In this document: one piece after another, positions 4,060 to 30,978 of the stretch | How the letters are laid out: each line of letters begins with the position of its first letter | Position numbering within the stretch: the stretch's first letter is position 1 | DNA from: a virus | IMG/VR virus record: IMGVR_UViG_3300037843_000557 | Coordinates: 1-31,380 of that record | DNA length: 31,380 nt | Strand: one strand, 5' to 3' | Notes under the pieces: model-generated | The model's database searches: none | Told to the model about the DNA's origin: nothing | Seen by the model: only the letters and a program-made list of their open reading frames with translations | Program-made: the position numbers and the translations under genes

Positions 4060-4062
4060 GGT

Positions 4063-6705: not shown

Positions 6706-7425
6706 CTAAGAACCGCAAAGAGAACATTCTGGGTTCGTTTTTCCTCGGTTGACGTGCCATCGTGTGTGAATCGCCTTTGGAAGACTTTTGGCTGCAATGC
6801 GACCAGCCCGCTGTTTGTCTTCCCGTGACCCTGCCCTGCCCGCTCTGGCTTTGTCTTCCCGCGATGCTGCCCCGCCTATCTTTTTGAAATGGTCTGGGTC
6901 AACGGCGAGTTTCTGATTCTTCCACTCGTTGAACGCTTCTAAACGAACGGATTCATCCTGCTTGGCGCGGGCAGATTTTATTTTCTCTATCGTTTCAGAA
7001 GATGTGGCATGCCCCTTCATCTTAGCACTGAAATTTTCCTTGACTCCCGGTCGCTGCCACATAAGACGACTAGCGGCGGCGTTCTTTTTCTTAGCTTCTT
7101 CGGAATGGGGTCCCGTGAACCCCTCACCGCCACGGCAGATGTTGTAGCCTTTTTCATGGTTGCGAGAATCGAGAAAAGCGATACAGAACGTCTCAAGGCT
7201 ATTGAGCACTGCCTTGGGCATGTCGCCGTGAACCTCAGCGATAGGCTCAATGGAAAAGTTCTCCCGTCCGTGCTTTCGAATGGCGGCGAAAAGGCTAGAC
7301 CGTTCTTTGGGCTTGTGTTGCGCAGCCCAAAACTTCTTCTGCAAATACTGCACAAGGTTGTCGCCTTTGTGCTGACCAACATAAATCTTGCCGTTTACAG
7401 CGTTGGTGATGAGATAGACGTACAT
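6706..7425 (-). CDS. Free-standing GIY-YIG homing endonuclease
   Basis: 239 residues. The GIY-YIG domain covers about 1-100: MYVYLITNAVNGKIYVGQH with both Tyr motifs, the AIRKHGRENF segment, and the closing GYNICRGGEGFTG. The linker has a NUMOD3-like HSEEAKKKNAAASRL, then repeated basic segments (GGAASREDKARAGRAGSRED) that probably bind DNA. The C-terminus HTRWHVNRGKTNPECSLCGS is a recurrent end of phage homing endonucleases and may bind zinc with the Cys pair. Expression may use its own signal, since CAGTATTAG and a GGGAGG ribosome site lie just upstream. It separates the 433- and 310-residue structural genes, both of which appear complete. Confidence 0.92.
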   Translation of the reverse strand: MYVYLITNAVNGKIYVGQHKGDNLVQYLQKKFWAAQHKPKERSSLFAAIRKHGRENFSIEPIAEVHGDMPKAVLNSLETFCIAFLDSRNHEKGYNICRGGEGFTGPHSEEAKKKNAAASRLMWQRPGVKENFSAKMKGHATSSETIEKIKSARAKQDESVRLEAFNEWKNQKLAVDPDHFKKIGGAASREDKARAGRAGSREDKQRAGRIAAKSLPKAIHTRWHVNRGKTNPECSLCGS

Positions 7426-8420: not shown

Positions 8421-8957
8421 CTATGATATTGCACCCCTTTGACGCTCAGCTATAATCTCTCGCAAGACAGGGCTGAGGCGAAGCATCTCCTCATAAGAGA
8501 GATGGTTATTCTTGATTCGGTTGCACATTTTGCAGGCTACGACTAGATTTTCTTTGATGTATCCAGTACTGTTGTCTTTACGGTCAAGGTTGCTGCCAAC
8601 ACGAGTTCCACTGCCAAATTTTCTGTATGGCATCCAATCAACTGTGGAACCGCAATAATGGCACTCAGAAACGGTAGTGAAGAGGACATACTCCTCATAG
8701 CTTAAAGTGACAGGAATGTGGCGCTTTTCTGCCCCGAGCAAAAGGCGGTTAAACCTCCATTCGTGAGGGCGCTTCCGGGATTTGATGTTAGGTCTGGTGG
8801 CGGCGCATCTGCGGCACAGTCCCACCATTTTTGGAACGACATTACCTCTCTTCCATAAATCCAGACCGCATCTTTTGCACTTAAACTTATAAAGAGTACG
8901 AAACTCCTTCCCATCCCAATAGCGTTTGGTTTCAACTGCATCTTTAATAGTGTACAT
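8421..8957 (-). CDS. Free-standing HNH homing endonuclease
   Basis: 178 residues. An N-terminal zinc pair (C27/C30 in CKRCG, C48/C51 in CRRC) precedes the HNH core: C99/C102 (CHYCG), NLDRKDNSTGY around 123-132, N137, then CKMCN at 142-146 with the usual IKNNHLSYEEM continuation. All expected HNH ligand positions are visible. The gene is AT-rich compared with the adjacent structural gene. It is the last minus-strand gene before a divergent switch, with 49 bases between its start and the plus-strand kinase start. It stops 14 bases before the 310-residue gene. Confidence 0.9.
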   Translation of the reverse strand: MYTIKDAVETKRYWDGKEFRTLYKFKCKRCGLDLWKRGNVVPKMVGLCRRCAATRPNIKSRKRPHEWRFNRLLLGAEKRHIPVTLSYEEYVLFTTVSECHYCGSTVDWMPYRKFGSGTRVGSNLDRKDNSTGYIKENLVVACKMCNRIKNNHLSYEEMLRLSPVLREIIAERQRGAIS

Positions 8958-9006: not shown

Positions 9007-9573
9007 ATGATACTTATCAACATCGCGGGTGGACCTGGAGCGGGCAAATCGACGCTGGCGGCCTACCTGTACTACCGCCTGAAGCGGGCCGGGGTCAGGA
9101 CGGAGCTTGTCGGGGAAGCCGCACGCGAGGAGCACATCTATCCGGGGCACCCGGACAGGGCACCCGCCCCGCTCCTGGACAACCAGGTGCTCGTCGCTGG
9201 GCAGCAGTTCGAGAGGGTGCTCCGGCTCCAGCGCCACGGCATCGAGGTCGCCGTCTCCGACTCGCCTATAGAGCAAGGGCTGCTCTACTGCGCCGACCAC
9301 CCGTACTTTGAGGGCCTGACGAAGACCGTGTACGAGATCGCCGGGTATTTCGAAACCTACAACGTGTTCATCAACCCGAAACCGGGATGCTACGACCCGG
9401 AGAGCCGGGTGCAGCGGACAGAAGCCGAGGCGCGGGCGCACGACAAGACGGTGCGCAAGCTCATGAAGAATAAGTTCTGGGCGGAGTACGGCTGGGAAGA
9501 CTGGGACGTGCTGGGTGACGCGGCGGTCGCGCTGGCTTTGTCGAAACGCCCCAAGAAAAGGAAGAGAAAGTGA
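9007..9573 (+). CDS. AAA_28-type P-loop kinase/ATPase
   Basis: 188 residues. The Walker A motif GGPGAGKST is at 8-16 after a beta strand MILINIA. ELVGEAAREE (34-42) and VAVSDSPIEQGLLY (81-94) match the second-strand and Walker-B-like acidic segments of small nucleoside-kinase-like P-loop proteins. The tail is strongly basic (KRPKKRKRK). This layout fits the AAA_28 family, which includes the ribosylnicotinamide kinase domain of NadR and many phage proteins annotated only as ATPases. A nicotinamide riboside kinase role would fit the NAD+ genes at 15.9-18.3 kb, but nothing seen proves the substrate. It is the first gene of a two-gene plus-strand unit and overlaps the next by four bases (GTGA). 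Confidence 0.75.
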   Translation: MILINIAGGPGAGKSTLAAYLYYRLKRAGVRTELVGEAAREEHIYPGHPDRAPAPLLDNQVLVAGQQFERVLRLQRHGIEVAVSDSPIEQGLLYCADHPYFEGLTKTVYEIAGYFETYNVFINPKPGCYDPESRVQRTEAEARAHDKTVRKLMKNKFWAEYGWEDWDVLGDAAVALALSKRPKKRKRK

Positions 9574-12372: not shown

Positions 12373-12726
12373 CTATCTGCCCTCGTTCTCCCTGTAGACA
12401 TACAAGCGCCGGGTGACCTCGTCGAGCGCCTTGGGGTCGAATTGCAGCCAGCCTGTGAAGCCGTCTTTACCGGACGAGACTTGAAGGCCGACGCAGTCGT
12501 GCATATGGGCAAAGAACGAGTACAGGAACTTGAAGCAGAACTCGGCGACGCGGGTGTAGTCGAACGGGCTTTCCCCGGACACGAAAGCGACGTGCCCCCA
12601 GTTGGGGCCGCCCTGGCAACTGCTGACGGTCTTAAAGCCGAAGCCGTTGATGGCCTTGACCAGCGTCCAGACCTCGGCGTCGATCTCGGCGTTGAGGGAC
12701 GGCACGAACTTCGTTGGGTGACTCAT
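12373..12726 (-). CDS. Conserved phage protein of unknown function, 117 residues
   Basis: The start at 12726 (MSHPTKFVPSLNAEIDAEVW) overlaps the upstream stop as ATGA; a longer upstream extension is in shadow. The segment AINGFGFKTVSSCQGGPNWG followed by HVAFVSG fits a phage family with the pattern LN..GIkTxxSCxGhxxxxxYVxF, of unknown function. The second half is amphipathic (RVAEFCFKFLYSFFAHMHD). It is probably a soluble cytoplasmic protein. Confidence 0.7.
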   Translation of the reverse strand: MSHPTKFVPSLNAEIDAEVWTLVKAINGFGFKTVSSCQGGPNWGHVAFVSGESPFDYTRVAEFCFKFLYSFFAHMHDCVGLQVSSGKDGFTGWLQFDPKALDEVTRRLYVYRENEGR

Positions 12727-13236: not shown

Positions 13237-13433
13237 TCACTAACAGGCTCGGCAGGGTAGAGCGGGTAAGCCCCTAGATACGTGCTACGCAGGTCCTTGC
13301 CCGCAAGTTTAACGGCGGCGACGGTTTCTTCGGCCAATTCCAGCGACGGGTACTCAAGAACCCGCATGTAGACCCCCGCCTCGTCTCTGGACCCGAGTAT
13401 CAACACCTGCCAAAAAGTGCGTTCTGTTGCCAT
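13233..13433 (-). CDS. Small protein of unknown function, 66 residues
   Basis: MATERTFWQVLILGSRDEAG begins a compact alpha/beta-like sequence with ELAEETVAAVKLAGKDLRST. Its ATG shares a base with the preceding TAA (TAATG) and its stop overlaps the next ATG as ATGA, so it is part of a coupled operon. No family recognised. Confidence 0.65.
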   Translation of the reverse strand: MATERTFWQVLILGSRDEAGVYMRVLEYPSLELAEETVAAVKLAGKDLRSTYLGAYPLYPAEPVSE

Positions 13434-13609
13434 TAACTTTCCTCCAGCTTGGGCTTCACCAGCCTGACAGGCACCAACACATACATCATGCCATGCGGGT
13501 GCTTGTGCGGCGACTCGAAGCCGATCCTCACCAACTCTTCCTCGTCTTCATCTCGGACCGGCTCGAAGTCCACGATGCCCTCAACGAGAACTTTATCTCC
13601 GGTCTTCAT
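13433..13609 (-). CDS. Small beta-rich protein, 58 residues
   Basis: The ATG at 13609 overlaps the stop of the AAA+ gene (ATGA). The product starts MKTGDKVLVEGIVDFEPVRD and ends MMYVLVPVRLVKPKLEES, suggesting a small SH3- or OB-like barrel. A longer frame (to 13912) lies inside the AAA+ gene and is rejected. The tight coupling suggests it could be a partner of the AAA+ ATPase. Confidence 0.65.
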   Translation of the reverse strand: MKTGDKVLVEGIVDFEPVRDEDEEELVRIGFESPHKHPHGMMYVLVPVRLVKPKLEES

Positions 13610-15384
13610 TCGATGGTACCGGATGCCGCCGCCTTTGTCTTTGGTCTGCGCGAGCGCCTGATAGCGGTCAGCTTGGCGGGCGGTTCGGTCGGGGGCGTGT
13701 CCGCGTGCGCGGCTTTCATGTCGTTCTCGAAGCTCAGCGACGCCGTGCACGCCCGCCTGAGGTCGCCGACCTGGACCTTGCGGCTCTTGGACTTCGCGAG
13801 CGTCATCGCCATGCGGATCGAGTTCTTGATCTGGCGGCCGTTCACGTCGTAGTTGTACAGTTCGTCCGCCCACTCCGGGTCGAGGCCTGCCGCGCCGAGG
13901 AGGTTCTGCCAAATCCTGTGCGCCTTACCCTCCTTCTTGTAGTGCAGGGCGACGGAGATGCGGCTGTAGAACGCCGAGTCGATCTTCTTCACGCGGTTGG
14001 TCGTCAGAAATAGCACGCCGTTGTGGTACTCCATGAGGCGCAGGAACACGCCCACCATGGCGTTGCGCTCGATGTTGTGCTCGTCGCGCTCTTCGAGGAA
14101 GATGTCCGCCTCGTCGAGGAGAAGCACGGCGTCCCAGATGACGGCGACGTCGAGGATGTTGCGGAGCTTCTTTTCAAGCATGTCCGTGTTGGTGCCAAGC
14201 TCGCCCACGCCGACCGAGTACAGCGGCTTGTGCAGGAGTTCCGCCACCGCCTCGGCGGTCGCGGTCTTGCCCCAGCCCGGAGGCCCGTGCAGTAGGAAGA
14301 TCGTCCCGCCGCCTTTGCCCTCGATAATGTCGGTGAAGCCTGACCCGTGGAACTTGACGAGGGAGTGGATCATGTCCTTCTTCTCGTCCTCCACGACGAG
14401 CTTGTCCCATGCATCATCGCGCCATTTGATATCGGACATACCGTCGAGGTCGAGCCGCCCCCACTGCTTCACGGCAAGGGAGAACCCGTAAAGCTGCGGC
14501 AGGCAGCGCCAATAGTCCTTCTCGTCGATGGTCGTGTTACTGCGGGGCGCTTGGCCCTCCCGCTCGTTCTCGATCTCTACGCCACAGTGGCCGATGCAAC
14601 TTCTCCAGACCTCAGGCTCCTGCCGCTCGAACGAGACCGGGTCGATGACTATGCGGCCGTCTGCGCGGAACGTGCGAGCGTTCCACCAGCTAGGCTGGGT
14701 TAGCGTGCCTTTGTAGGCGGCGTAGGTGCCCGGCTTGAAAAAGCGGGCGAACTGCTTACCGCGCCCGGTCAGAAACTTCTTGTCCTTCTCTGTCACGGGG
14801 CGCACCGGGAGGTCGGCGAGGGGCACAAGCCCGTGGAACCCCGGCATGCTGTAGTTGTACAAGCCCTGCTGGATTTCGCCCTTCACGGCATGCACCACGC
14901 TGAGCGTGAACTGCCAGTAGGTGCCCGAGAAGAATGAACGCTGAAGCTTAACGGACTTGATGACGCCGCCGATTAGGCCCTCGTCGTATGTCTGCGCCAC
15001 GACTTCGGTGCCCAAGGGGAAGGCGGTCTCCATGTCGCTCATCTCGATCACGCCCTTGGCCTTGCGCTGCTTGTAAGACGCCGCCCGGAGTTTCTGCTCT
15101 TCTTGCAGGATGGTGATGAGAGCACGCTTCTGCGGATGGGTTATGCCGTCAAGCAGGTTGATGTAGTCCACGAGGAACGTGACGGGGTAGCGGTGCCCGA
15201 AGTCGTCCACCATCGCATCTTCAAGGTTGTTGGTCAGGTAGGTGTAGATGTGGTTGCGCATGCTCCCGTGGTCGGGGTCGCGCATGTCGATGAACTTGTG
15301 GCCCCGGTCTTCCAGAAGTTGGAATCCGGCATTCTTGGAGAGCACGACGGGCTTCTCGTCGTATGTGTAGTATTCCAGACTCAT
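13606..15384 (-). CDS. AAA+ ATPase with fungal-type architecture
   Basis: 592 residues. The AAA+ module covers about 330-550: Walker A GPPGWGKT (367-374), Walker B LLLDEAD (421-427), sensor 1 TTN (461-463), Arg finger SR (R475), and a sensor-2/lid region GRQIKNSIRMAM (516-527). The long N-terminal region contains RFFKPGTYAAYKG and ADGRIVIDPVSFER (about 214-254). The combination with EGKGGGTIFLLHGPPG, PLYSVGVGELGT and FLRLMEYHNGVLFLTTNRV is, from memory, closest to the large AAA+ family of filamentous fungi (with a DUF7025-like N-terminus). It is likely a remodelling ATPase that unfolds or moves a protein target. The C-terminus is a basic, low-complexity tail. It leads the small-gene operon, coupled by ATGA to the 58-residue protein. 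Confidence 0.88.
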   Translation of the reverse strand: MSLEYYTYDEKPVVLSKNAGFQLLEDRGHKFIDMRDPDHGSMRNHIYTYLTNNLEDAMVDDFGHRYPVTFLVDYINLLDGITHPQKRALITILQEEQKLRAASYKQRKAKGVIEMSDMETAFPLGTEVVAQTYDEGLIGGVIKSVKLQRSFFSGTYWQFTLSVVHAVKGEIQQGLYNYSMPGFHGLVPLADLPVRPVTEKDKKFLTGRGKQFARFFKPGTYAAYKGTLTQPSWWNARTFRADGRIVIDPVSFERQEPEVWRSCIGHCGVEIENEREGQAPRSNTTIDEKDYWRCLPQLYGFSLAVKQWGRLDLDGMSDIKWRDDAWDKLVVEDEKKDMIHSLVKFHGSGFTDIIEGKGGGTIFLLHGPPGWGKTATAEAVAELLHKPLYSVGVGELGTNTDMLEKKLRNILDVAVIWDAVLLLDEADIFLEERDEHNIERNAMVGVFLRLMEYHNGVLFLTTNRVKKIDSAFYSRISVALHYKKEGKAHRIWQNLLGAAGLDPEWADELYNYDVNGRQIKNSIRMAMTLAKSKSRKVQVGDLRRACTASLSFENDMKAAHADTPPTEPPAKLTAIRRSRRPKTKAAASGTIE

Positions 15385-15421
15385 GGTTGCCTCTGAGAAG
15401 AGGGTAACCTATTTTCGCGGA

Positions 15422-15763
15422 CTATTCAAGGGGAAGGCCTTCAGGGTTGTCGATCCTTACCAGGCTTCCGTCCTCTTTCCAGTGATGCCGTGGACCATCG
15501 ACTCTTACCAAGCTACCGTCTTCCGTCCAATGGCAGCGTAAGGTTATGCACCAGAAACACAGTTCTCTCGGGAAGCGCGTCAGCGGCTTGCCTTCCATGG
15601 CGGGCAGGAGGTCGCTGAGCTTGCAGCAGCCCATGCATTCCGAAAGATGTTCGCCGCACGCCGCACACATCCGAACCGAGTTGTCGTAGCCCTCGAACGG
15701 GAAGGGGCCGTTCCAGATGCCGTCCCTGAATTCCCACCCCTCAATGATTTTGACTTCGTTCAC
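15422..15763 (-). CDS. Cys-rich protein with duplicated C-terminal motif, 113 residues
   Basis: GTG start at 15763 overlapping the previous stop (GTGA). The middle contains MCAACGEHLSECMGCCKLSD and ELCFWCITLRC, several CxxC-type pairs likely to bind zinc. The last 35 residues carry two copies of HWxEDGSLVRxD (CHWTEDGSLVRVDG, then HHWKEDGSLVRIDN). No family recognised. It lies directly upstream of the AAA+ gene in transcription order. Confidence 0.65.
   Translation of the reverse strand: MNEVKIIEGWEFRDGIWNGPFPFEGYDNSVRMCAACGEHLSECMGCCKLSDLLPAMEGKPLTRFPRELCFWCITLRCHWTEDGSLVRVDGPRHHWKEDGSLVRIDNPEGLPLE
15448..15524. repeat. Imperfect direct repeat of about 31-36 bases
   Basis: Two adjacent copies of a sequence like cttaccaggcttccgtcctc and cttaccaagctaccgtcttc, about 42 bases apart, encode the duplicated HWxEDGSLVRxD unit of the 113-residue protein. 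It is a recent-looking internal duplication in frame. Confidence 0.6.
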
Positions 15764-15942
15764 TTATTGATCCACTTCGCGCCTGCGTAAAGAACCCCAG
15801 CCATCAGAGCCGCATACCCGAGCGCCACGGGGTACATGTGAGCGATGACCCACTCGATGTGAGTCATGTATGCAAGCCATGCGCCAATAGAGATGAAAAA
15901 CGTAACCACGATGCAGACCATGCCTTTGCTGTCTCTGGTCAT
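15760..15942 (-). CDS. Small two-helix membrane protein, 60 residues
   Basis: Two hydrophobic segments, MVCIVVTFFISIGAWLAYM (8-26) and MYPVALGYAALMAGVLYAG (36-54), joined by a short loop and ending with a basic KWINK. It overlaps the NAMPT stop by four bases (ATGA) and the Cys-rich gene start by four. Function unknown. Confidence 0.65.
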   Translation of the reverse strand: MTRDSKGMVCIVVTFFISIGAWLAYMTHIEWVIAHMYPVALGYAALMAGVLYAGAKWINK

Positions 15943-17381
15943 GCCGTTGCTTCCTTAGATTCCTCGAAGAAGCGGTCGTTCGACGACGCGGTTTCGCGGA
16001 TTTCCGCGAGTGTGAAGTCCTTCTTGAGTTCACCGTCCAGGAACACGGTCTTGAGCAGGTTACCGTAGCCGTCTTCCTCTGTGCTTGCGACGGTGTGGTA
16101 GGTGTGCGAATGGTTGTTGCCGTGATCGAACAGGCAGAAGCGCCCACCCTCGGACGATTTGGTCAGGTCGGTCACTGGCTTCTTGTAGACGGGGTGCCAG
16201 ACCCCAGCCCGGTTGATGGCGCTGCACTTGATAGCGAAACGCATGGTGTCGCGATTCTGTTGTTGGAGCAAAGCACCGCCCATGCCGTAACCCCAGTTGT
16301 CCATCGACCAGCCGAGGCGCGTCAGGTGCGAGTTGATGCGGAGGATGTTCTGATAGTTGACGCCGTCGCCTTGGATCACACGGATTTGCTGCGGCAGCAC
16401 CTTCCAGCCCTTAGCGTTCGTCTCGAAGCCGAACTTCTCGGAAACGGAATTGAAGATGTCCTCAATCACGACGCACGGATCGCCCGAGTCGGGGCGGAGG
16501 ACGACCGTGCCCTCACGGCGGAGAATCATCTCCCTAAGCTCACCGCCGAAAATGTTTTCAACCGCATTGTGGGTGTCGTAGGAGTCGATGACGCAGGCGA
16601 CGAGAGGTGTTGGAGACCTGCGAATCTGGTTGCTGTAGGCGTCAGCCTCGTGCTCTTTGCCCCATGACGTCACGGTACTGTGCTCCATGGCAGAAATGCT
16701 GAAGCCCGGCATGCCCTTTTCGTTGTAGAACTGCTGGAGCATCGGAATCGCCCTGAGCGTGTCGGTGCCGAGGAAGTTGACGAGGTGAGCGCCGCCGCCG
16801 ATTGCCGCCGTCTCGCGGGAGCTTACGCCGCGAAAGCCGAAGTCGTGCAGCTTGAAGTTCAGCAGTCCGGGGTCGCCCGTGCGGACTAGGTCCTTGCCGA
16901 TTGCCTGCTTGATCTCGTAGCTGAGCGTTGCGACCGTTGTTGGATACCAAACTTGGAGGAGCAGGGTCTCGGCCCAGTTGGTGACCCACGGGAACTCCTC
17001 GTCGGTGTTTTCGATGGTCATGAGGCAGTTGTGCGTATCGACGACAGTGCCCTCGGGGACAGCGCGAATCTTCAGCGGCAGCCTGCCGCCGTGCTTCTCA
17101 AGCAGGCGAGTCCAGCCCTTGGTGTTGAAGACCTTGTCGGTACCGAAGTGCAGGGCGCAAAACTTTTCCGCCTCGTCGATGTCTGCCTTGGTGAACACCT
17201 GCCCCACGAAGCAGGACTTCAGGATGTACTGTAGCCCGAAGAACATGGTGTGCTTCCAGAACCCGCCCCGGCTCTGGAGGTACGAGTACACGCGTTGCGC
17301 ATCCGGGGGGTACTGCCACCAGTGGGAAAGCTTGTAGGAGTCGGTTTCGAGCAGGGGGTTAACTCTGAGTTGCTGTGGCAT
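15939..17381 (-). CDS. nadV: Nicotinamide phosphoribosyltransferase (NAMPT/NadV)
   Basis: 480 residues, the normal NAMPT length. It makes NMN from nicotinamide and PRPP, the first step of two-step NAD+ salvage in the cytoplasm. Visible family motifs: TDSYKLSHWWQYP (13-25), HDFGFRGVSSRETA (179-192; D180 corresponds to human D219), MEHSTVTSWGKEHE (232-245; H234 corresponds to the catalytic human H247), LRPDSGDP (295-302; human R311/D313), VIQGDGVNY (335-343), and GGALLQ. All key residues are kept, so it should be active. It overlaps the NMN adenylyltransferase gene by 23 bases, which implies co-translation. Comparable pairs occur in vibriophage KVP40 and in NARP2 anti-defence pathways of phages. 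Confidence 0.96.
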   Translation of the reverse strand: MPQQLRVNPLLETDSYKLSHWWQYPPDAQRVYSYLQSRGGFWKHTMFFGLQYILKSCFVGQVFTKADIDEAEKFCALHFGTDKVFNTKGWTRLLEKHGGRLPLKIRAVPEGTVVDTHNCLMTIENTDEEFPWVTNWAETLLLQVWYPTTVATLSYEIKQAIGKDLVRTGDPGLLNFKLHDFGFRGVSSRETAAIGGGAHLVNFLGTDTLRAIPMLQQFYNEKGMPGFSISAMEHSTVTSWGKEHEADAYSNQIRRSPTPLVACVIDSYDTHNAVENIFGGELREMILRREGTVVLRPDSGDPCVVIEDIFNSVSEKFGFETNAKGWKVLPQQIRVIQGDGVNYQNILRINSHLTRLGWSMDNWGYGMGGALLQQQNRDTMRFAIKCSAINRAGVWHPVYKKPVTDLTKSSEGGRFCLFDHGNNHSHTYHTVASTEEDGYGNLLKTVFLDGELKKDFTLAEIRETASSNDRFFEESKEATA

Positions 17382-18306
17382 TTTGGGCCTCCTTCTTGAT
17401 GCCCTTCTCCGTCAGGAACTTTTCCAGCAGAGGGAAAAGCGGCTGGTGCGTGTCAACGATGTCTCCGGCTTCCAGCCTGTCGGTCTTGAACCATCTCACC
17501 TCCGCGATGTCGTCGCCCGCCGTCGCGCCCTGCGACATGACGGTGGTCGCGAAGAACAAGGTCTTCACGCCACGGTCGGATGTGCTGTAGCGCCAGTCGG
17601 GGATGACGGCGGAGCCGATGTACTGCATCTTGTGCGGGACGAGCGAGGTTTCCTCGAAGACTTCGTGGCGTGCGTCCCACTCGTAGGTCGGGCATTCCTT
17701 CTCCGCGTGGCCGCCGATGAAGCGGAATTTCCCCTCGGGGTCGCTGCCCTTGCGCCCGAGGAGGATGTTCGCGTAGTCGGTGGTGAATATCGCGATGTCC
17801 ACGGTCGCCAGCACGACGGGCCATAGGTGCGCGGAGGCGTAGATCATCCCGGCGCGGAAGTCCGAGGACTCGATCACCTTGGTCGCGTACTCCTCGCGGA
17901 TGTCGGTGCCCTTGATCTGCTGAAGCTCGGCGGGAAAGGCAAGTTCGATAGGCTTGTGCTTGCCCTTGTAGTGCGGCACGAACGAGTCGCGACCGCCATA
18001 AAGGACGAACTCGGCGGGGCCGTCGATTGCGTTCGAGATCGCCTCGTCGAGGTTCCGGCTCCACGTCTCGTCGTTATGCGTGTCGCGCAGTTCGCGCACG
18101 ATGAAATCGGGGAACTTCGCCTCGATCATGCGGCGACGGACCTCGAAATCTAGCGGGTTGTCCTTGGTCAGGCCCGCAGGGTGCGAGCCGACGAACACGA
18201 CCACTCCGCTGTGCCGGGAACGCACCTGCCGGAAAAGCTCCATGTGCCCGTCGTGCAGGTCGTTGACCTGGAAACGGCCAACAATAATTCCGTAGCTGGG
18301 TTTCAT
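17359..18306 (-). CDS. nadM: Bifunctional NMN adenylyltransferase/Nudix hydrolase
   Basis: 315 residues in two domains. Residues 1-165 are a nucleotidyltransferase: GRFQVNDLHDGH (10-21) with the HxGH signature at H18-H21, and IKGTDIREE (131-139), equivalent to the ISSTxxR motif; this half joins NMN and ATP into NAD+. Residues 166-300 are a Nudix domain with GGHAEKECPTYEWDARHEVF and EETSL (198-222); relatives cleave ADP-ribose. The Nudix box is unusual: the Arg before EVFEE is His and spacing is one residue longer than GX5EX7REUXEEXGU, though the EE metal pair is intact. It overlaps NAMPT by 23 bases, so the two steps nicotinamide to NMN to NAD+ are encoded together. The small membrane gene upstream overlaps by four bases. 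Confidence 0.95.
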   Translation of the reverse strand: MKPSYGIIVGRFQVNDLHDGHMELFRQVRSRHSGVVVFVGSHPAGLTKDNPLDFEVRRRMIEAKFPDFIVRELRDTHNDETWSRNLDEAISNAIDGPAEFVLYGGRDSFVPHYKGKHKPIELAFPAELQQIKGTDIREEYATKVIESSDFRAGMIYASAHLWPVVLATVDIAIFTTDYANILLGRKGSDPEGKFRFIGGHAEKECPTYEWDARHEVFEETSLVPHKMQYIGSAVIPDWRYSTSDRGVKTLFFATTVMSQGATAGDDIAEVRWFKTDRLEAGDIVDTHQPLFPLLEKFLTEKGIKKEAQNATATQS

Positions 18307-18482
18307 AGGAATCTCCTGAGTACCCTCTTGGCGTAAAAGAAGGCGGCGATGGCGACAGCCACAAACAGCATCAGCCCGAACACGGCGACCAGACGCACGA
18401 TCACGAACGAGTGGGCGACGAACCAGCAGCCCACGAAGATGAAGAGCAGCAATCCAAGGATGATGTAGAGGCGGCGTCTCAT
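18303..18482 (-). CDS. Small two-helix membrane protein, 59 residues
   Basis: Starts MRRRLYIILGLLLFIFVGCW and has a second hydrophobic stretch LVAVFGLMLFVAVAIAAFF, ending with basic KRVLRR. The frame runs from ATG at 18482 to TGA at 18303, overlapping the NadM start (ATGA). The N-terminal Arg cluster suggests inside orientation. Function unknown. Confidence 0.65.
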   Translation of the reverse strand: MRRRLYIILGLLLFIFVGCWFVAHSFVIVRLVAVFGLMLFVAVAIAAFFYAKRVLRRFL

Positions 18483-18489
18483 TTAGCCC

Positions 18490-18894
18490 TCACTGTTCAA
18501 CGTCGTAAACTTTGTAGACTACACCCGCGTCGCCGGGGTATCTGTAAATTAAAGCGTTCCCGATACCCAGACTAGACCTATTCTTGCGCTTGGTGGGGTA
18601 AGAACGTTCATCGTTATCTTGCAGATATTCCATATCATAAGTGCGCCCAACATCAAGCGGAGCGCAATCGCTGTATTGAGTCTCGCAGCGAATATAGAAC
18701 TTTACAGAACAAGCACTGCCGCACCCATGATTGTACGTCGTGTGAATGTTGTATCCGTAGCCGGGGATCGTGTAACCCGGTTCAAATGCCTCGTCGATGA
18801 AGTAACGCTCTTCCACATGCCGCTGTTGAGCCAGAGCAACTGATGCGCACACGGCGATTGCGAACAATGCCAGCAGAACGAAGCTTCTTCTCAT
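18490..18894 (-). CDS. Secreted protein with signal peptide, 134 residues
   Basis: The signal peptide MRRSFVLLALFAIAVCASVALAQ has a basic start, hydrophobic core and an ALA-Q cleavage site. The mature part has paired cysteines (HGCGSACSVKFYIRC, YSDC) that could form disulfides in the periplasm, and conserved-looking Tyr/Gly (PGYTIPGYGYNIHTTYN). No family recognised. It overlaps the upstream gene by four bases. Confidence 0.65.
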   Translation of the reverse strand: MRRSFVLLALFAIAVCASVALAQQRHVEERYFIDEAFEPGYTIPGYGYNIHTTYNHGCGSACSVKFYIRCETQYSDCAPLDVGRTYDMEYLQDNDERSYPTKRKNRSSLGIGNALIYRYPGDAGVVYKVYDVEQ

Positions 18895-19127
18895 TTCAGT
18901 TCCCCCGCAGCGAGGCTCTTTTCAAGCTCAGCCTTGATTATAGGGTTGTTGAGGCGGAAAAGGCAAACGGAATCCCACTGCTCGCAAAGCTTTTTGGCTT
19001 CCTCCCGCTCCGCGTCGGTCAAGGTCTTATTATACCGGAGTTGCCAGAGGAAGTTCGCCATCTTCGCGCCGATGAAGTCGGCTCGGGTGGCGATGCGCCG
19101 GGTTTCCTTTTTGCTAGACATCGTCAT
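18891..19127 (-). CDS. Small helical protein, 78 residues
   Basis: Charged and helix-rich (MTMSSKKETRRIATRADFIG, TDAEREEAKKLCEQWD, IIKAELEKSLAAGELK), without membrane or signal segment. M3 is an alternative start. It overlaps the secreted 134-residue gene by four bases. Unrecognised. Confidence 0.6.
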   Translation of the reverse strand: MTMSSKKETRRIATRADFIGAKMANFLWQLRYNKTLTDAEREEAKKLCEQWDSVCLFRLNNPIIKAELEKSLAAGELK

Positions 19128-19128
19128 C

Positions 19129-19305
19129 TCAGTGGGGGTACAGCAGACGGATCAGGTCGCGCTGGTAGACGATGATGCTGGATTGCCAGATAACAGCCCA
19201 GAGCAGCAGGGCCATGACGACAGCCGCCACGCTGAGTCCGACTGTCAAGTGCGTCTCGCTCGCCGGTATGCTCAGATGGCGGATGAATCGGATCATTGGC
19301 TTCAT
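19129..19305 (-). CDS. Single-pass small membrane protein, 58 residues
   Basis: Begins MKPMIRFIRHLSI and has one membrane helix VGLSVAAVVMALLLWAVIW followed by IIVYQRDLIRLLYPH. The start at 19305 leaves four bases after the upstream stop; a longer start at 19350 would run through the upstream gene. Function unknown. Confidence 0.6.
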   Translation of the reverse strand: MKPMIRFIRHLSIPASETHLTVGLSVAAVVMALLLWAVIWQSSIIVYQRDLIRLLYPH

Positions 19306-19309
19306 GCGC

Positions 19310-19660
19310 CTAGTTCCCGTTCCCAGAATGACCGCACACGACATTCTCATCAGGCGTGCCGTATGCCGGTTCCGTCATGAAGGTGCCGCGCACATACGAC
19401 CACTCCCCCGCCCCGCACGACCAAAAATACCCAACTGCGGTGTTTGTAAGGCTCCGCGACGTGTGGGGGTAAAGCACGAAGTCCGTCGCCCCGCCGTCGG
19501 CCGTCGCGTACCGGACGTCCCACGTCTCGTCGCTGGTGTTCGTAAACGTGATCACGTTGTTGTTGTTGCTATAGCTGACAACGATGTTGTTCGCGAACGC
19601 CGGAAGGACAAAGCCGAGCAAGCAAAACGCGCAAAGCACGAGCATGTTCCGAACTCTCAT
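19310..19660 (-). CDS. Secreted beta-rich protein, 116 residues
   Basis: The signal peptide MRVRNMLVLCAFCLLGFVLP ends at AFA-N. The mature chain is short beta strands (NNIVVSYSNNNNVITFTN, TWDVRYATADGGATDFVLYP) with two cysteines (C81-type SCGAGEW and VVCGHSGNGN). It resembles a small periplasmic or surface protein. No named family. It lies in the same run of envelope genes as the 134-residue protein. Confidence 0.65.
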   Translation of the reverse strand: MRVRNMLVLCAFCLLGFVLPAFANNIVVSYSNNNNVITFTNTSDETWDVRYATADGGATDFVLYPHTSRSLTNTAVGYFWSCGAGEWSYVRGTFMTEPAYGTPDENVVCGHSGNGN

Positions 19661-19812
19661 TTATTTTCTCCTCCGCTATTCGATTCGATACGCCTACGCT
19701 TCAAGGCAAGGCGCACGTTCTCCAGCTTCTCTTTGATGATCGCGTAGAAAGCCTCGTCCAAGGCCCGGTCAAAGGCTTCTTTGTGGCTGGAATCTGTATC
19801 GGAACTGCGCAT
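19657..19812 (-). CDS. Small charged protein, 51 residues
   Basis: The ATG at 19812 is chosen because AGGAGGTGGCGGGT, a strong ribosome site, stands before it; a GTG at 19851 would add 13 residues without such a site. The protein is a charged helix (EAFDRALDEAFYAIIKEKLE, then VRLALKRRRIE). It follows the helicase gene and overlaps the next by four bases. Function unknown. Confidence 0.55.
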   Translation of the reverse strand: MRSSDTDSSHKEAFDRALDEAFYAIIKEKLENVRLALKRRRIESNSGGENK

Positions 19813-19851
19813 ACCCGCCACCTCCTGTCCCGGCTCACTAAAGGCCTTCAC

Positions 19852-22800
19852 TTAATTGGATGCGGCGGACTTGGGCAAGGCGTCAACTTCTTTCAGGAAT
19901 CTTGAGGGGGCCACTCGCTGGACGTTGGCGCTGCCCTGGACGGGCACCTTCTCCGGCAGGCAGAGCACCAGCGCGTCGCGGGCACGGGTGCAAGCCACGT
20001 AAAACAAACGCCTTTCCTCCTCTATCTCCTCGTCGGACCCCATGCAAAACCTGTTCGGGAGAGACCCCTCGTACACATTGGTCAAAAATACACGACGCCA
20101 TTCTAAGCCTTTAGCTGAATTGTGAACAATTATGCCACCAGAAACATAGTAATGGTGGGGAAGAACATCTAAGCTGAAGACTTGTCCTTCATAAAATTCA
20201 CGACGTATCCTTGCAGTCATCGGTCGCGGACTGCTTGGGGCTTTCATATCAAAGTCCCTTTGTTGTGCCACAGGAACGCACATGTAGCCATCCAACATAT
20301 TCGCGGCCACCGTGTCGAACCAGTGACCGCCCAAAACTTTTTGTCTCTTCCCCCTGCGGCAATAGAGAGGACTATCTAACAACAGACCCCTGTCTTGCAG
20401 CAGTTTTACTGCTCTTGGAAAAACCAATGAACGCAACTCCTCGTGGACTTCATGAAGTTGCTGTGAAGACATTTTATGATGCCACTTTTCGAAACAAGCG
20501 GAAGGTATTCCATAGGCTACTTGATAACGAATTTCAGCAGCTAATGCGTCTTCTCTATTGTCAAAAACCCCCAAAAGCCACCCGCAGTCCGCTTTTTCCG
20601 TAGCTAATCTACCGGGAACGCCGCCGGATTTATATGGTTTGTTAGCAGACTTGCAAACACCGATTCTCCACCAATCTCCTCGTCGCATGAGGTATACCAC
20701 CCACTTGTTGTAAAAATCTTCGTTGAAAGACACTCTTACTCTATGCTCAGGAGTTACTCTGGTATGCGTTTCAGCAGTATCTATAACAACCAAATCGCCC
20801 TTGTATGGGCGTGTCCTTACGGAAAAATCGTAGCCTTTACGCTGATTATCATGCCCGCGAGCAAGCTGATTGCATTTCACTGCGTAAGAATACAGTCTAT
20901 CTTTGTCCGGCTGTAGTGATCCAATAGGTTTATTCCCATAGGTAGTCAGGACTGGCTCATCTGGCGGAGAGCAATGGATAGTGGAGATGGTCACGGAGCC
21001 TTGCCGCATCTCCTCCATCTTGCGGTCGTACTGCTCCTGCGTAAGCTCCCCGGTCGCAAGCTGGCGGTCGTACATCGCCTTCTCGGTCTCGTCGCCTTTG
21101 GTGCGGTCTAGTGCCATCTGGAAGATCAGGTCGTCGAGGGACATGACAGTCCCGGTCGTCAGGGACACGATCATGAGCACGAAACGCTCGATGTTCTCCA
21201 GCTTCGCCTTGACCCTGTCGGGGTCTTTCTTGTACTTCTCCTTGACGTACTTGCGGTAGTCGAACAGGGCGAGAATCTTCTCCACGGCGGTGATCGGCGC
21301 GTCCCTGAACTCGGTGACCATGTCGATGATGCCGACGAGGTTGTGTAGGCGCTCGTTCTCCTTGGCAGCCTCCAGCAGGTCGCCGTCGAACCGCTGGTTC
21401 GCCTCGATCCTCAGCTTGTTGAGCGCGACCTCGCCCACACCACAGCGGGGCACGGAGCAGCAGCGCATGAACGCGGTGAAGTCCTTGCGGTTGGCCGCCA
21501 GGCGGAGGTAGGCGAGGATGTCGCGCACCTCCTCGGTCTGGAGCAGACCGCGACCGCCGCGCACGATGTACGGGATGCGGCGGCGCACAAGCTCGCCCTC
21601 AAGGTCGCGGACCTGCATGCCGCTGCGCACGAGAATCGCGTTTTCCTTGTACAGGATCGGGTCGCGCCTGCGGGTGGCGTCGCTCTTAATCTGCTGGGCG
21701 ATGACCTCGGCGCAGTTCTGCGGCAGGCTGGCGCGGAAAAGACGCCAGTCCCCGTCCTCCTCGCGGAACACGTCCATCTGGAGGGGGATGGTTTCAGTCA
21801 TCGTCTTCTGAATCTTGTTGGCGAGGTGGACAATGTTTTTCATGCTGCGGTGGTTCCTTTTTATTTTATATAAATGGGGCTTAACCCCCCTCCACTCTTC
21901 ACTGAAATCTTTGAGAATCCTCGGTACGGCTCCATTGAACCCGTAGATTGAATTTCCGACTACTAATCCATCTGCGATGTACGTGTGGTCTTTCTCTATA
22001 TCAAGGGAGTACACCAATCCCTCATAATGCTCTTTTGTAACATTTGTAATAGAAGCAAATCCGCTTAGGCGATGACCGTCTTTGTCTTTCTTTCCAGTAA
22101 CAGCATTGGGAATATCCATGATCTGCGGAAGAACATTACAAGCTGCTGTTTTGAAGAACCCTGACCATTTCATACTAAAGTCTAGCCGCTTTTCATTATC
22201 CCGAATAACCAACGGAAACTCAAACAACAGACCATAGTCGGAGAGACAGTTAAACCCACCTTGTCGCTTAGCAACAGAAAAAATTGGTTTGATGGTTTCT
22301 AAGCCTCGTGTACGAGACGGCTCAAAAATAGTTTCTGGAATACCATACTGTAACGAAATCATCTCTTCCCACATCTGCGCTTCTATACGAGTTTCGCATA
22401 TCTTTACAATCCAGCCTGCGGTTGCCTTTTCAGCCCACATCCGATGTGCTAACCCAGCAGATTTACCAGCATGCAATTTTGTTGTACCTACGCGGAATCC
22501 AAAATCCTCTCGAAACATCAAGTACACGATATGCTTATCCTTTGAAGCCTCATTGAAGCGCACCCACAGCCAATGGTTCGGAGTGACACGGGTCTTGCAG
22601 CCAGCACTCTCAATAGCTATAAGAGTACCAGAATAAAAACGGGATGATGCCGCGTTAATTCGTCTTCCAGAACACCGCAAATCTGAGTTTCTTCTTCCCC
22701 AAGAGACAGCTAGTTCGTCTGTTCGTACAGTAGCAATGTCACGTTCGTTCCATTGTGCCTCTTGTTGCATACCCGTCAACTGGGGCTGCTTTGTCACCAT

Positions 22801-23628
22801 CGAAATTTGTGTACCCGGAGGCTGGCATTGCCCCATGTCCCCGACGACGTACAGGTTCGGGTTGTCCGGGCCGAGCAGGCCGTTGACGAACTCCCATTGC
22901 ACGGGGTTCGTGTCCTGCGCTTCGTCCATTAGCACGTGCTCGAACTGCTTCTGGAGGGTGGCTTTCCACTGCGAGTCGGTGCGCATCCTGCGGACGACGA
23001 GGTGGAGCATATCGTCGAAGTCCACCACGGAATTCTTGCGCTTCTCGTCCTCGAAAAGCTCCCAGAAATCAAGGTACTCCTCGGTGAGGGCGTGGTACCC
23101 GGCGTGCTCATTCAGCGCCTTGTCGTGCACCGCGTCGGTGTACTCGTCGCGGAAGCCTACACCACGAGCACGGTGGAAGCTTATCTTCTCCAGCACGGAG
23201 TAGGTGAAGCCGTTTCCCCTGCCCTCGCTGTGACCGCGCTTCTCGTCGTAGCGCTCGATGACCTTCTTCATAAGCTGCACTTGGTCGTACTCGTCGAGCG
23301 GTGTGACATGCGCTTGCAGGCCGAACGCCTTGGGATTCTTCCGTATGCCGGAAAGGGCGAGGGAGTGGATCGTGGAGACACGAGGCTCCTTGTCCATAGG
23401 CGTGTCTAGACCGATGCCAAGACGATCTTTCATCTCGTTCGAAGCTTTATTTGTGAAGGTGATAGCTACTATCTTGCGGGGTAATATACCCTGATCTATG
23501 AGCCAGCGGACGCGTTCAGTGAGCACACGGGTCTTGCCTGAACCTGCGCCAGCGATCAGGACGGCGGGCTTGCCGACTGGATGCTGCACGGCGGCTGTTT
23601 GTTCTTCGTTGAGGGGAAACTTAGGCAT
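19852..23628 (-). CDS. uvrD: UvrD/PcrA-like superfamily 1 helicase with two inteins
   Basis: 1258 residues, of which 681 remain after removing inteins, close to the usual UvrD/PcrA/Rep size. Motifs: Walker A AGAGSGKT (26-33), TFTNKAS (57-63), TIHSLA (86-91), DEAQD (235-239), GDMGQ|SIYGFNGA (motif III, split by intein 1 after residue 267), NHRS (592-595), TIH|SAKGLEW (motif V, split by intein 2 after 885), and VACTRARDALVL (1211-1222, motif VI). It unwinds DNA 3' to 5' in replication or repair. Both inteins interrupt the most conserved ATP- and DNA-contacting motifs, so splicing is required for activity. The start overlaps the 82-residue gene by eight bases. The extein DNA is GC-rich; intein DNA is AT-rich. 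Confidence 0.95.
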   Translation of the reverse strand: MPKFPLNEEQTAAVQHPVGKPAVLIAGAGSGKTRVLTERVRWLIDQGILPRKIVAITFTNKASNEMKDRLGIGLDTPMDKEPRVSTIHSLALSGIRKNPKAFGLQAHVTPLDEYDQVQLMKKVIERYDEKRGHSEGRGNGFTYSVLEKISFHRARGVGFRDEYTDAVHDKALNEHAGYHALTEEYLDFWELFEDEKRKNSVVDFDDMLHLVVRRMRTDSQWKATLQKQFEHVLMDEAQDTNPVQWEFVNGLLGPDNPNLYVVGDMGQCQPPGTQISMVTKQPQLTGMQQEAQWNERDIATVRTDELAVSWGRRNSDLRCSGRRINAASSRFYSGTLIAIESAGCKTRVTPNHWLWVRFNEASKDKHIVYLMFREDFGFRVGTTKLHAGKSAGLAHRMWAEKATAGWIVKICETRIEAQMWEEMISLQYGIPETIFEPSRTRGLETIKPIFSVAKRQGGFNCLSDYGLLFEFPLVIRDNEKRLDFSMKWSGFFKTAACNVLPQIMDIPNAVTGKKDKDGHRLSGFASITNVTKEHYEGLVYSLDIEKDHTYIADGLVVGNSIYGFNGAVPRILKDFSEEWRGVKPHLYKIKRNHRSMKNIVHLANKIQKTMTETIPLQMDVFREEDGDWRLFRASLPQNCAEVIAQQIKSDATRRRDPILYKENAILVRSGMQVRDLEGELVRRRIPYIVRGGRGLLQTEEVRDILAYLRLAANRKDFTAFMRCCSVPRCGVGEVALNKLRIEANQRFDGDLLEAAKENERLHNLVGIIDMVTEFRDAPITAVEKILALFDYRKYVKEKYKKDPDRVKAKLENIERFVLMIVSLTTGTVMSLDDLIFQMALDRTKGDETEKAMYDRQLATGELTQEQYDRKMEEMRQGSVTISTIHCSPPDEPVLTTYGNKPIGSLQPDKDRLYSYAVKCNQLARGHDNQRKGYDFSVRTRPYKGDLVVIDTAETHTRVTPEHRVRVSFNEDFYNKWVVYLMRRGDWWRIGVCKSANKPYKSGGVPGRLATEKADCGWLLGVFDNREDALAAEIRYQVAYGIPSACFEKWHHKMSSQQLHEVHEELRSLVFPRAVKLLQDRGLLLDSPLYCRRGKRQKVLGGHWFDTVAANMLDGYMCVPVAQQRDFDMKAPSSPRPMTARIRREFYEGQVFSLDVLPHHYYVSGGIIVHNSAKGLEWRRVFLTNVYEGSLPNRFCMGSDEEIEEERRLFYVACTRARDALVLCLPEKVPVQGSANVQRVAPSRFLKEVDALPKSAASN
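20119..20973 (-). mobile_element. Intein 2 in helicase motif V (285 residues)
   Basis: Covers C886 to N1170 of the helicase. It begins CSPPDEPVL (nucleophile Cys), has block B-like ETHTRVTPEH (953-962), block F-like EFYEGQVFSLDV and ends GGIIVHN before Ser+1, the canonical His-Asn end. It inserts between TIH and SAKGLEW. The middle (976-1047) reads WVVYLMRRGDWWRIG, then GRLATEKADCGWLL and a helix with AEIRYQVAYGIP, resembling a degenerate GIY-YIG nuclease fold. It is a sister of intein 1 in the same protein. Precise excision would restore TIHSAKGLEW. DNA is AT-rich compared with the flanks. Confidence 0.93.
21952..22827 (-). mobile_element. Intein 1 in helicase motif III (292 residues)
   Basis: Covers C268 to N559. 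It begins CQPPGTQIS, has the block B-like GCKTRVTPNHWLWV (343-356), the block F-like HYEGLVYSLDI (534-544), and ends DGLVVGN before Ser+1. The penultimate residue is Gly, not the usual His, so C-terminal cleavage may be slower. The middle (366-436) has HIVYLM, FRVG, HRMWAEKATAGWIV and EEMISLQYGIP, aligning with the GIY-YIG-like insert of intein 2. It splits GDMGQ/SIYGFNGA. The DNA is about 43% GC in 21961-22020 by hand count. Confidence 0.92.
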
Positions 23629-23869
23629 CCTTGAACCGACGCTTCCTGATATCGTCCAGGCGGATCGTCGGAGCGCTGTCGGCGTTCTTCATCATTTCGT
23701 CGTGAAGACGTTGCCCCTCCGCACACAGATGCTCCAAGCACAGGATCGGCATCGGCAGGATTCCGCCGACCTCCTCGTGCGACTTGCACTCAGTGCATTT
23801 CCGCAGATGGTCTGGGAAAGCGAAGAAGTAGTGAAACGGGTTGGGGACTTTTATCCGTTCGCTACTCAT
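23621..23869 (-). CDS. Small Cys/His protein, 82 residues
   Basis: Start MSSERIKVPNPFHYFFAFPD at 23869 overlaps the phosphatase stop by eight bases; its end overlaps the helicase start by eight. Residues 24-52 contain RKCTECKSHEE and LCLEHLCAEG, a possible zinc site (CxxC...CxxHxxC). The C-terminus is basic and charged (IRLDDIRKRRFKDA). Unrecognised; a regulator or helicase-linked protein is possible from position only. Confidence 0.6.
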   Translation of the reverse strand: MSSERIKVPNPFHYFFAFPDHLRKCTECKSHEEVGGILPMPILCLEHLCAEGQRLHDEMMKNADSAPTIRLDDIRKRRFKDA

Positions 23870-24614
23870 CGAACCGCGCCAGTAAGCATGAGACATTGTC
23901 CCCGGTAGGGATCGCGACGGCGCGGTCAACGATGGCTTGCGCGTCGGCCCCATCTTCCACCAGCTTGACGACTGCATCGGCTTCCTTCTCGAAGCCATAG
24001 TGGCCGGGGTCGAAAGCGCCGTCCGTGGCGACGACAATAAAGCTGCCCTTGTTCACCCGCACGCTGTAGATGTCCGGCTTACGGGAGAGCACCTTGCGCA
24101 GGTTGGAGTCGCCCAGCGCCCGCGCCATCTGCAATCCCGGGCCGTCGTAACTCGCGTACAGGTAGCCGCCGACGATTACGCCGCCGCGCTCCTCGGCGGC
24201 ACGCCTCTCGTCCATGTTGGTGCGAACGTTGTGGTCGGGGCTGATGTTGATGGCTCCCTTGGAGTCCTTGACGATGATCGGGCTGTCGCCCATGACGGCG
24301 CAGTACACGAACCTGCCCTTGAACGGGACGAACGCGAGCGACACCGTGGAACCGGGCACCATGGTTTGCGTTATGGCGTTCAACTTGCGAATCGCCCTCT
24401 TCAGGGCGACGCGGGGTGTGGCTTTAGGCTCGGTTATCTCGTCGGCGAAGATGCCGGGAAGCTCCTCGGATGCGAGGTGCGACACCTGCTCGCCGCCGTG
24501 CCCATCGAACACGGCGAGTAGCATGCCATGCTCGCAGGAGACGGTGCAAAAACGGTCTTCCTGGTAGGGGCGTGCCCCCTTGTGGGTGGCGGTCGAAATG
24601 GGCTTGAGGTACAT
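23862..24614 (-). CDS. PP2C-family protein phosphatase
   Basis: 250 residues, the size of a minimal PP2C catalytic domain. Motifs in order: GARPYQEDR (13-21; R15 and D20), AVFDGHGG (34-41; D37 metal ligand), AVMGDSP (106-112), ARALGD (164-169), ATDGAFD (196-202; D198) and PTGDNVSCLLARF (236-248; D239). All metal-binding Asp residues are kept, so it should remove phosphate from Ser/Thr in proteins using Mn/Mg. No membrane or signal segment is seen. No kinase is found in this window. There is no Shine-Dalgarno sequence; CAGTATTAG ends five bases before the ATG. Phosphatases of this kind are uncommon in phages. Confidence 0.95.
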   Translation of the reverse strand: MYLKPISTATHKGARPYQEDRFCTVSCEHGMLLAVFDGHGGEQVSHLASEELPGIFADEITEPKATPRVALKRAIRKLNAITQTMVPGSTVSLAFVPFKGRFVYCAVMGDSPIIVKDSKGAINISPDHNVRTNMDERRAAEERGGVIVGGYLYASYDGPGLQMARALGDSNLRKVLSRKPDIYSVRVNKGSFIVVATDGAFDPGHYGFEKEADAVVKLVEDGADAQAIVDRAVAIPTGDNVSCLLARFDE

Positions 24615-28529: not shown

Positions 28530-29141
28530 TCAGTATGCGTCTTTCCCGGCAAGGACAACGTAGGGGGTGGCGGCGATAATTTTCATGTCCATCCACAACG
28601 ACTGGTTCTCGCAGTAGTGTATGTCCAACCGGACCATGTCGTCAAAGCTTAGACTGCTCCGACCGCTCACTTGCCACAGTCCGGTGATGCCGGGTTTGGT
28701 GTCCAGCCTACGGCGGTGCCAAGGCTTGTACATCTGGCACTCGTAGGGAACCGGGGGCCGGGGGCCGACCAAGGACATCTCCCCGCGCAAGACGTTCCAA
28801 AATTGGGGAAGCTCGTCGAGGCTGAACTTCCTGAGAAACCCGCCAACGGGGGTAACCCTGAGATCGTTTGTGATTTTGTAGACCCGCTGTTCGCCGCCCC
28901 CATGCCCGGATTCGATGAGCTTCTTCACGAATTCCTTGTGCAGGCAGGAGTCGTTGTTGTTGTACATGGTTCGGAACTTCAAACACATGAACCGAGCACC
29001 GTCTTGCCCCAGACGCTCCTGCTTGAAAACCGCCGGGCCCTCCGATGTGAGCTTGATGATCGCGGCGATCAATGCGATCACGGGGGAGAGCACCAGCAGG
29101 AAAAAGGCGCTGCCGACAATGTCTATTGCACGTTTAACCAC
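28530..29141 (-). CDS. Bacterial sugar transferase (small phosphoglycosyl transferase)
   Basis: 203 residues from a GTG start with AGGAGACTC upstream. It has the whole minimal PglC-type fold: KRAIDIVGSAFFLLVLSPVI with the Ser-Pro break (S19, P20) of the re-entrant membrane helix, GPAVFKQERLGQDGARF and LKFRTM (35-59), the catalytic DE pair in LDELPQFWNVLRGEMSLVGP (D109/E110), KPGITGLWQVSGR (149-161), and a C-terminal D...Y..N.S segment. This enzyme places a sugar-1-phosphate on undecaprenyl phosphate at the inner membrane, the first step of O-antigen, capsule or glycan assembly. In a phage it could redirect the host surface polysaccharide; this is inference. No other glycan genes are in the window. 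Confidence 0.93.
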   Translation of the reverse strand: MVKRAIDIVGSAFFLLVLSPVIALIAAIIKLTSEGPAVFKQERLGQDGARFMCLKFRTMYNNNDSCLHKEFVKKLIESGHGGGEQRVYKITNDLRVTPVGGFLRKFSLDELPQFWNVLRGEMSLVGPRPPVPYECQMYKPWHRRRLDTKPGITGLWQVSGRSSLSFDDMVRLDIHYCENQSLWMDMKIIAATPYVVLAGKDAY

Positions 29142-30724: not shown

Positions 30725-30799
30725 TGGCTGCCTCGCTAGGACTCGGACCTAGATTTGGTGATTCAGAATCACCCGTCCTGCCGGTCAGACGACAAGGCA
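30725..30799 (-). tRNA. tRNA-Gln (anticodon CTG)
   Basis: A 75-nt cloverleaf with acceptor TGCCTTG/CGAGGCA, anticodon stem GGTGA/TCACC, loop TTCTGAA (normal T33), T-arm CTAGG/CCTAG, discriminator G73 as expected for Gln, and encoded CCA. All stems pair. Confidence 0.92.
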
Positions 30800-30810
30800 A
30801 AAGACAAATT

Positions 30811-30884
30811 TGGCTCCGGGGCAAGGATTCGAACCTCGATAGCGGGTTCCAAGGACCCGCGTCCTGCCGTTGGACGACCCCGGA
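30811..30884 (-). tRNA. tRNA-Gln (anticodon TTG) with C33
   Basis: A 74-nt cloverleaf: acceptor TCCGGGG/CCCCGGA (perfect), D stem GTCC/GGAC, anticodon stem CGGGT/ACCCG, loop CCTTGGA giving anticodon TTG, T-arm CGAGG/CCTTG, G73, encoded CCA. Position 33 is C instead of the near-universal T (U33). Confidence 0.88.
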
Positions 30885-30889
30885 AAAAT

Positions 30890-30964: not shown

Positions 30965-30978
30965 GAAATCACTAATTT

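Follow-up and report, generated by a model that had tools for sequence, protein, structure and literature searches.

The nicotinamide phosphoribosyltransferase (NAMPT) gene of a phage NAD+ salvage pair has changed type repeatedly behind the same NMN adenylyltransferase (NMNAT)/Nudix gene, and in the clearest cases the junction of the exchange is the NAMPT start codon. The pair lies on the 31,380-bp linear IMG/VR virus record IMGVR_UViG_3300037843_000557, a fragment, which was analysed over its whole length and is called the window (W in comparisons) below. The explanation that we favour, and judge to be likely, is a two-gene NAD+ salvage operon with a NARP2-like benefit and a replaceable NAMPT. 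Both reading frames stand on the minus strand at the positions given in the initial annotation, with NMNAT/Nudix upstream of NAMPT, and the 23 bases that they have in common are 17359-17381. The features of the locus are these:

17359-18306, minus strand: NMN adenylyltransferase/Nudix protein, 315 aa (open reading frame; Pfam Nudix and CTP_transf_like; profile match; AlphaFold2 model)
17857-18306, minus strand: NMN adenylyltransferase half, residues 1-150 (profile alignment to 2qjt/2qjo)
18244-18279, minus strand: nucleotidyltransferase motif GRFQVNDLHDGH (lengthened spacing in a family of 169 sequences)
17896-17910, minus strand: GTDIR, the second NMNAT motif (R137 in 89 of 89 viral relatives)
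17407-17814, minus strand: Nudix half, residues 165-300 (Pfam PF00293, 2e-9; profile alignment)
17641-17712, minus strand: Nudix box GHAEKECPTYEWDARHEVFEETSL (Glu215, Glu218 and Glu219 kept, consensus Arg replaced by His214)
15939-17381, minus strand: nicotinamide phosphoribosyltransferase (NAMPT/NadV), 480 aa (NF006629, PHROG_448, PDB NAMPTs, active-site positions)
17359-17381, minus strand: 23-bp overlap of the NMNAT/Nudix and NAMPT reading frames (open reading frame coordinates; the NAMPT exchange junction is at the ATG here)
17388-17394, minus strand: AAGGAGG, likely NAMPT ribosome-binding site (sequence; putative function)
18313-18317, minus strand: AGGAG, likely NMNAT/Nudix ribosome-binding site (sequence; putative function)

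How might the two genes be expressed together? The AAGGAGG sits 6 nt 5' of the NAMPT ATG, within the end of the NMNAT/Nudix gene, and the overlap, together with this internal ribosome-binding site, probably links the translation of NAMPT to that of NMNAT/Nudix. In a promoter scan of 13400-24000, promoter-like sites were no more frequent than in shuffled sequences.

The evidence for exchange comes from the placement of the two proteins among relative loci (L002-L006, L023, L035 and L036, the close ones all metagenome contigs). On the NMNAT tree, W forms one clade with L002, L003 and L004 (100/100). On the NAMPT tree, W is joined to L006 (100/99) and L002 is placed outside that group; L003 and L004 belong to a distant clade that also holds L005, L023, L035 and L036. 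When the NAMPT data are constrained to a clade of W, L002, L003 and L004, the fit worsens by 214 log units (AU p = 1.5e-168). The NMNAT data reject both a grouping of W with L006 (p 0.0003) and a single clade of second-type NAMPT carriers (p 5e-41); the clades put to these AU tests were picked once the first trees had been seen. The three nearest NMNAT relatives of the window carry NAMPTs 40-58% identical to its own, and L005 and L023 are 92% identical in NAMPT and 64% in NMNAT. At the DNA level, homology between W and L003 is lost at 17378, by the NAMPT start codon (17381-17379), and returns at 15375, close to where the next conserved gene begins, while NAMPT homology between W and L006 spans ATG to stop (17381-15939). 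The long strong homology of L036 and L005 begins at the NAMPT ATG, and a sliding comparison puts the step in identity at the same start codon. What is new here is that NAMPT changes type at least five times on the NMNAT tree, behind a fixed NMNAT/Nudix gene; a narrow literature search found no paper on NAMPT replacement in phages.

Why should the NAMPT slot be so changeable? Its repeated exchange implies that selection maintains the pathway with its two steps and not any one NAMPT, and the resident ribosome-binding site 5' of the start codon may help to make the junction workable. A further proposal, which we put forward tentatively and hold to be doubtful, is that NAMPT is an exchangeable cassette with start-codon junctions, that its swapping stems from selection on NAMPT itself (for instance, escape from a host inhibitor, or tuning to nicotinamide or PRPP levels during NADase attack), and that drift has left the Nudix half with a weaker activity or another one. 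Exchange repeated with start-codon precision provides naturally swapped partners with which to ask whether metabolism or an arms race with NADase defences selects for phage NAD+ rebuilding.

The description of the downstream gene as a complete NAMPT with its catalytic residues is borne out. The protein scores 567 bits against NCBIfam model NF006629, above the curated cut-off of 405, matches Pfam NAPRTase and NAMPT_N as well as PHROG_448 (E 3e-148), and has NAMPTs as its best solved relatives in the PDB, with E down to 1e-135. All 12 of the active-site positions checked, in what we take to be human NAMPT numbering, are present (D16, Y18, F193, R196, D219, H247, R311, D313, G353, D354, G384 and R392); the set includes H247, and D219, which goes with nicotinamide rather than nicotinate. 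The same 12 residues are identical in about 150 NAMPT relatives wherever the residue was aligned, and a dN/dS of 0.12 against L006 shows the gene to be under purifying selection. Family model and residues together make NAMPT a well-supported assignment, from which synthesis of NMN from nicotinamide and PRPP is predicted.

The upstream protein had been called a bifunctional NadM/Nudix, a label that fits its two-domain fold and motifs; its NMNAT part is not canonical NadM, and its Nudix box keeps the glutamates but has lost the Arg. Single-sequence Pfam matches are weak (Nudix 2e-9, CTP_transf_like 8e-5). Against PRK05379 the protein reaches 38 bits, the cut-off being 449, and because it falls so far below the curated NadM score we treat it as a relative of NadM without filing it there. 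A profile of 12 relatives aligns over both domains with the Francisella NadM/Nudix structure 2qjt (6e-21) and with 2qjo (8e-15). An AlphaFold2 model (pLDDT 92.5; 63 sequences) has the NadM/Nudix fold, nucleotidyltransferase domain before Nudix domain, and its six best Foldseek matches in the PDB are the NadM/Nudix chains 2qjt, 2r5w and 2qjo. Fold and domain order are therefore those of F. tularensis NadM/Nudix (2r5w/2qjt) and of 2qjo, at 15-20% identity, whereas the whole-chain rmsd of 15-17 Å indicates that the domains are packed differently in the model. The motif GRFQVNDLHDGH is two residues longer than GRFQPFHxGH, a lengthened spacing typical of the 169 family members compared; 2qjt and 2qjo have the canonical spacing, as does the Vibrio phage KVP40 protein (GRFRPFHNGH). 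Judged by the two extra residues in GRFQ..HxGH, the window protein belongs to a subfamily separate from canonical NadM. Among other members of the family, eleven viral and one cellular have HxGQ for HxGH (L012 and L023 are examples), and several have T or N in place of the first His.

In the Nudix box, E215, E218 and E219 are retained and the Arg of the REUxEE consensus is His214, a loss that sets the protein apart from the solved NadM/Nudix enzymes. This Arg is present in 80 of 80 cellular NMNAT/Nudix members, while in the phage clade of the window it is mostly replaced by H, N, S, C, Y, A, L, D, M or K, and is still kept by a few members (L028, L032 and L041). The clade for the most part combines this loss with retention of the catalytic Glu. 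The NMNAT/Nudix gene is under purifying selection (dN/dS 0.15 against L003), and since this extends to both halves (0.13 for the NMNAT half and 0.14 for the Nudix half), the Nudix half is probably still used. With its metal-binding glutamates kept, it would probably still hydrolyse an ADP-ribose/NAD-type substrate, perhaps slowly because the Arg is gone. The Arg loss also weakens the earlier suggestion that this half returns ADP-ribose to the PRPP pool, as does the search for PRPP synthetase (PF13793), which gave no match in the window, itself a fragment, or in any of the close-clade phage records scanned, the largest of 463 kb; matches were found in three huge phages (LR745206, LR756502 and LR756504). 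PRPP must then be supplied by the host, barring a gene located beyond the ends of these fragments, and a route from ADP-ribose to PRPP would need host Prs.

NARP2 (NAD+ reconstitution pathway 2) is reportedly composed of NAMPT and NMNAT (Osterman et al. 2024), and the window, a virus record, carries just such a phage-borne NAMPT and NMNAT. As in NARP2, the two enzymes would be expected to make NAD+ from nicotinamide via NMN: NAMPT would join nicotinamide to host-supplied PRPP, giving NMN, and the NMNAT half of the upstream protein would join NMN to ATP, giving NAD+. We regard this enzymatic reading, predicted from the two sequences, as highly probable. The window pair differs from NARP2 in that its NMNAT is of the lengthened-motif subfamily and its genes overlap, NMNAT first; rescue from defence, reported for NARP2, is for the window pair a prediction by analogy. 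In a published survey, every phage that contains NadM also has NadV (PMC9503650). A comparison with KVP40, proposed earlier as carrying a similar pair, holds for the enzymes and fails for the arrangement. KVP40 encodes NadV and an NMNAT/Nudix protein, with the same two activities expected and a NAMPT 42% identical to that of the window, but the genes are about 43 kb apart (NMNAT/Nudix near 95 kb, nadV at 138 kb) rather than overlapping, and its canonical NMNAT motif places it in a different subfamily.

Where else does the pair occur? We sampled the NMNAT/Nudix subfamily from IMG/VR (138 stretches found, 80 kept) and from contigs of bacterial genomes (97 found, 80 kept), the latter mainly from Bacteroidota and the Chlorobi group, besides a few other MAGs. 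The subfamily occurs both in large phages and in NrtR-linked chromosomal operons of Bacteroidota and Chlorobi, and the order NMNAT/Nudix then NAMPT on one strand is found at nearly all phage loci and most cellular ones. Some cellular NMNAT/Nudix loci have no NAMPT within the flank. Three phage records have none nearby; in two of them (W04 and G006), a NAPRTase/NAMPT-family gene lies a few kb away. The third, G007 (the record of L062), has at 12640-12717 a match to the NAMPT N-terminus followed by an in-frame TAA, and the C-terminal NAMPT domain was not found in it, so this is possibly a broken copy. In large phages, members of this NMNAT/Nudix subfamily also adjoin, or lie close to, genes for highly divergent NAMPT-like proteins, which score 124-134 bits with the family profile (L009 9145-10392, L079 6545-7723 and L083 9644-10825).

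The chromosomal operons have the same NMNAT/Nudix subfamily (about 40% identity) and gene order as the window, and differ in being cellular, in keeping the Nudix Arg and in their sampled neighbours, which include NrtR (L103), PRPP synthetase (L107), ADP-ribosylglycohydrolase (L109) and a sodium:solute symporter (L098). In the Chlorobiales operon L109, the ADP-ribosylglycohydrolase gene (3152-4093) lies directly 3' of NAMPT. Close relatives of the window pair come from metagenomes only; the nearest isolated phage by NMNAT/Nudix, at about 40% identity, is Tunturiibacter phage Tunturi_5, whose gp218-gp217 are of the same subfamily and in the same order (NMNAT 40% and NAMPT 41% identical), with genes about 120 bp apart and the Nudix Arg kept. 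The window pair adds to the carriers of a complete nicotinamide-to-NAD+ pathway a phage lineage whose relatives reach about 460 kb and whose NMNAT/Nudix subfamily is found as well in the salvage operons of Bacteroidota and Chlorobi.

Three alternatives concern the proteins and the exchange themselves. The upstream protein could be mainly a Nudix hydrolase acting on ADP-ribose, NAD+ or NAD-capped RNA, its nucleotidyltransferase half vestigial, as the weak NMNAT model scores, the unusual motif spacing and the HxGQ or TxGH of a minority of relatives would allow. We consider this unlikely: HxGH and the (S/G)TxxR motif are intact in the window (HDGH and GTDIR, the latter of the GTxIR form), the NMNAT half is itself under purifying selection, the residue that has been lost is the Nudix Arg instead of one in the NMNAT half, and a NAMPT nearly always adjoins the gene. 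The downstream protein could, in turn, belong to NARP1, in which Namat acts with Adps, which we take to be a PRPP-synthetase-like family. Namat is a NAMPT homologue that uses ADP-ribose pyrophosphate, and it is marked by the clamp motif GSx..x..xTRD (PMC12774641). The window reads GGALLQQQNRD at this place, none of about 150 NAMPT relatives carries the motif, the window and those close-clade phage records that were scanned yielded no Adps-like gene, and an NMNAT partner would be superfluous; we reject this reading as extremely improbable, and the earlier assignment to the NARP2 kind (nicotinamide and PRPP to NMN to NAD+) stands. Finally, unequal rates or misassembled metagenomes could have mimicked the exchange, a concern raised by the fact that the close relatives are all metagenome contigs. 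The contrast runs both ways, however, with L003 at 77% identity to the window in NMNAT and 40% in NAMPT, and L006 at 57% and 84%. In L003 the flanking genes (AAA ATPase 79%, helicase segments 85-91%) agree with the NMNAT and not with the NAMPT, the same junction occurs in two separate contigs (L003 and L004), and the replacing NAMPT type recurs in L005, L023, L035 and L036, which makes an artefact very improbable.

Why would a phage carry a salvage operon for NAD+? The benefit during infection would most likely be to maintain or rebuild NAD+ that is being split into nicotinamide and ADP-ribose by host NADase defences, and counter-defence, as the initial annotation proposed on the supposition that this phage meets systems such as Thoeris or DSR, is the best-supported role by analogy, to which we give slightly better than even chances. 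The main rival is plain metabolic salvage, in which the pair would serve phage replication by raising NAD(H) and be unconnected with immunity. The same operon on Bacteroidota and Chlorobi chromosomes means that the pair is not phage-specific and that the operon by itself implies no counter-defence, and its NrtR, PRPP synthetase or ADP-ribosylglycohydrolase neighbours in the sampled cases are as expected for NAD salvage. Nor was a defence-linked gene found beside the pair by PADLOC, run on nine window proteins: NAMPT and NMNAT/Nudix gave no match, and only the neighbouring AAA ATPase matched, weakly, the IetA/TRIP13 models. Against a purely metabolic role, NARP2-type phage pairs are reported, in work citing the original study (PMC11984713), to replenish NAD+ after NADase attack, and the repeated swapping of NAMPT resembles that of genes under conflict. 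Metabolic salvage thus seems to us a serious candidate of somewhat less than even probability.

Several other genes of the window merit description. The AAA ATPase (13606-15384, minus strand) lies just downstream of NAMPT, matches DUF7025 and, weakly, IetA/TRIP13, and is 79% identical in L003/L004. A P-loop kinase-like gene at 9007-9573 (plus strand, opposite to most genes) is conserved in L003 and L005 and matches AAA_28, presumably the family of the NadR kinase domain, and weakly a PHROG thymidylate kinase; as a third NAD gene it was rejected, NCBIfam and PDB searches giving no support for a nicotinamide riboside kinase. A UvrD/PcrA-type helicase (19852-23628, minus strand) has two insertions, at about residues 268-556 and 888-1166, the former matching an intein splicing domain and C-terminal splicing region; both are present in L002, neither in L003 and apparently one in L006. 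A PP2C-type Ser/Thr phosphatase (23862-24614, minus strand) is conserved in L002, L003, L005 and L006. Within 9 kb, on the minus strand, are two GIY-YIG homing-endonuclease-like and two endonuclease VII/HNH-like genes (together at 4063-4773, 6706-7425, 1515-2135 and 8421-8957). The minus strand also encodes a bacterial sugar transferase of the undecaprenyl-phosphate sugar phosphotransferase family (28530-29141), here on a phage record, and a cluster of four tRNAs, Gln(CTG), Gln(TTG), Thr(TGT) and Thr(GGT), at 30725-31053.
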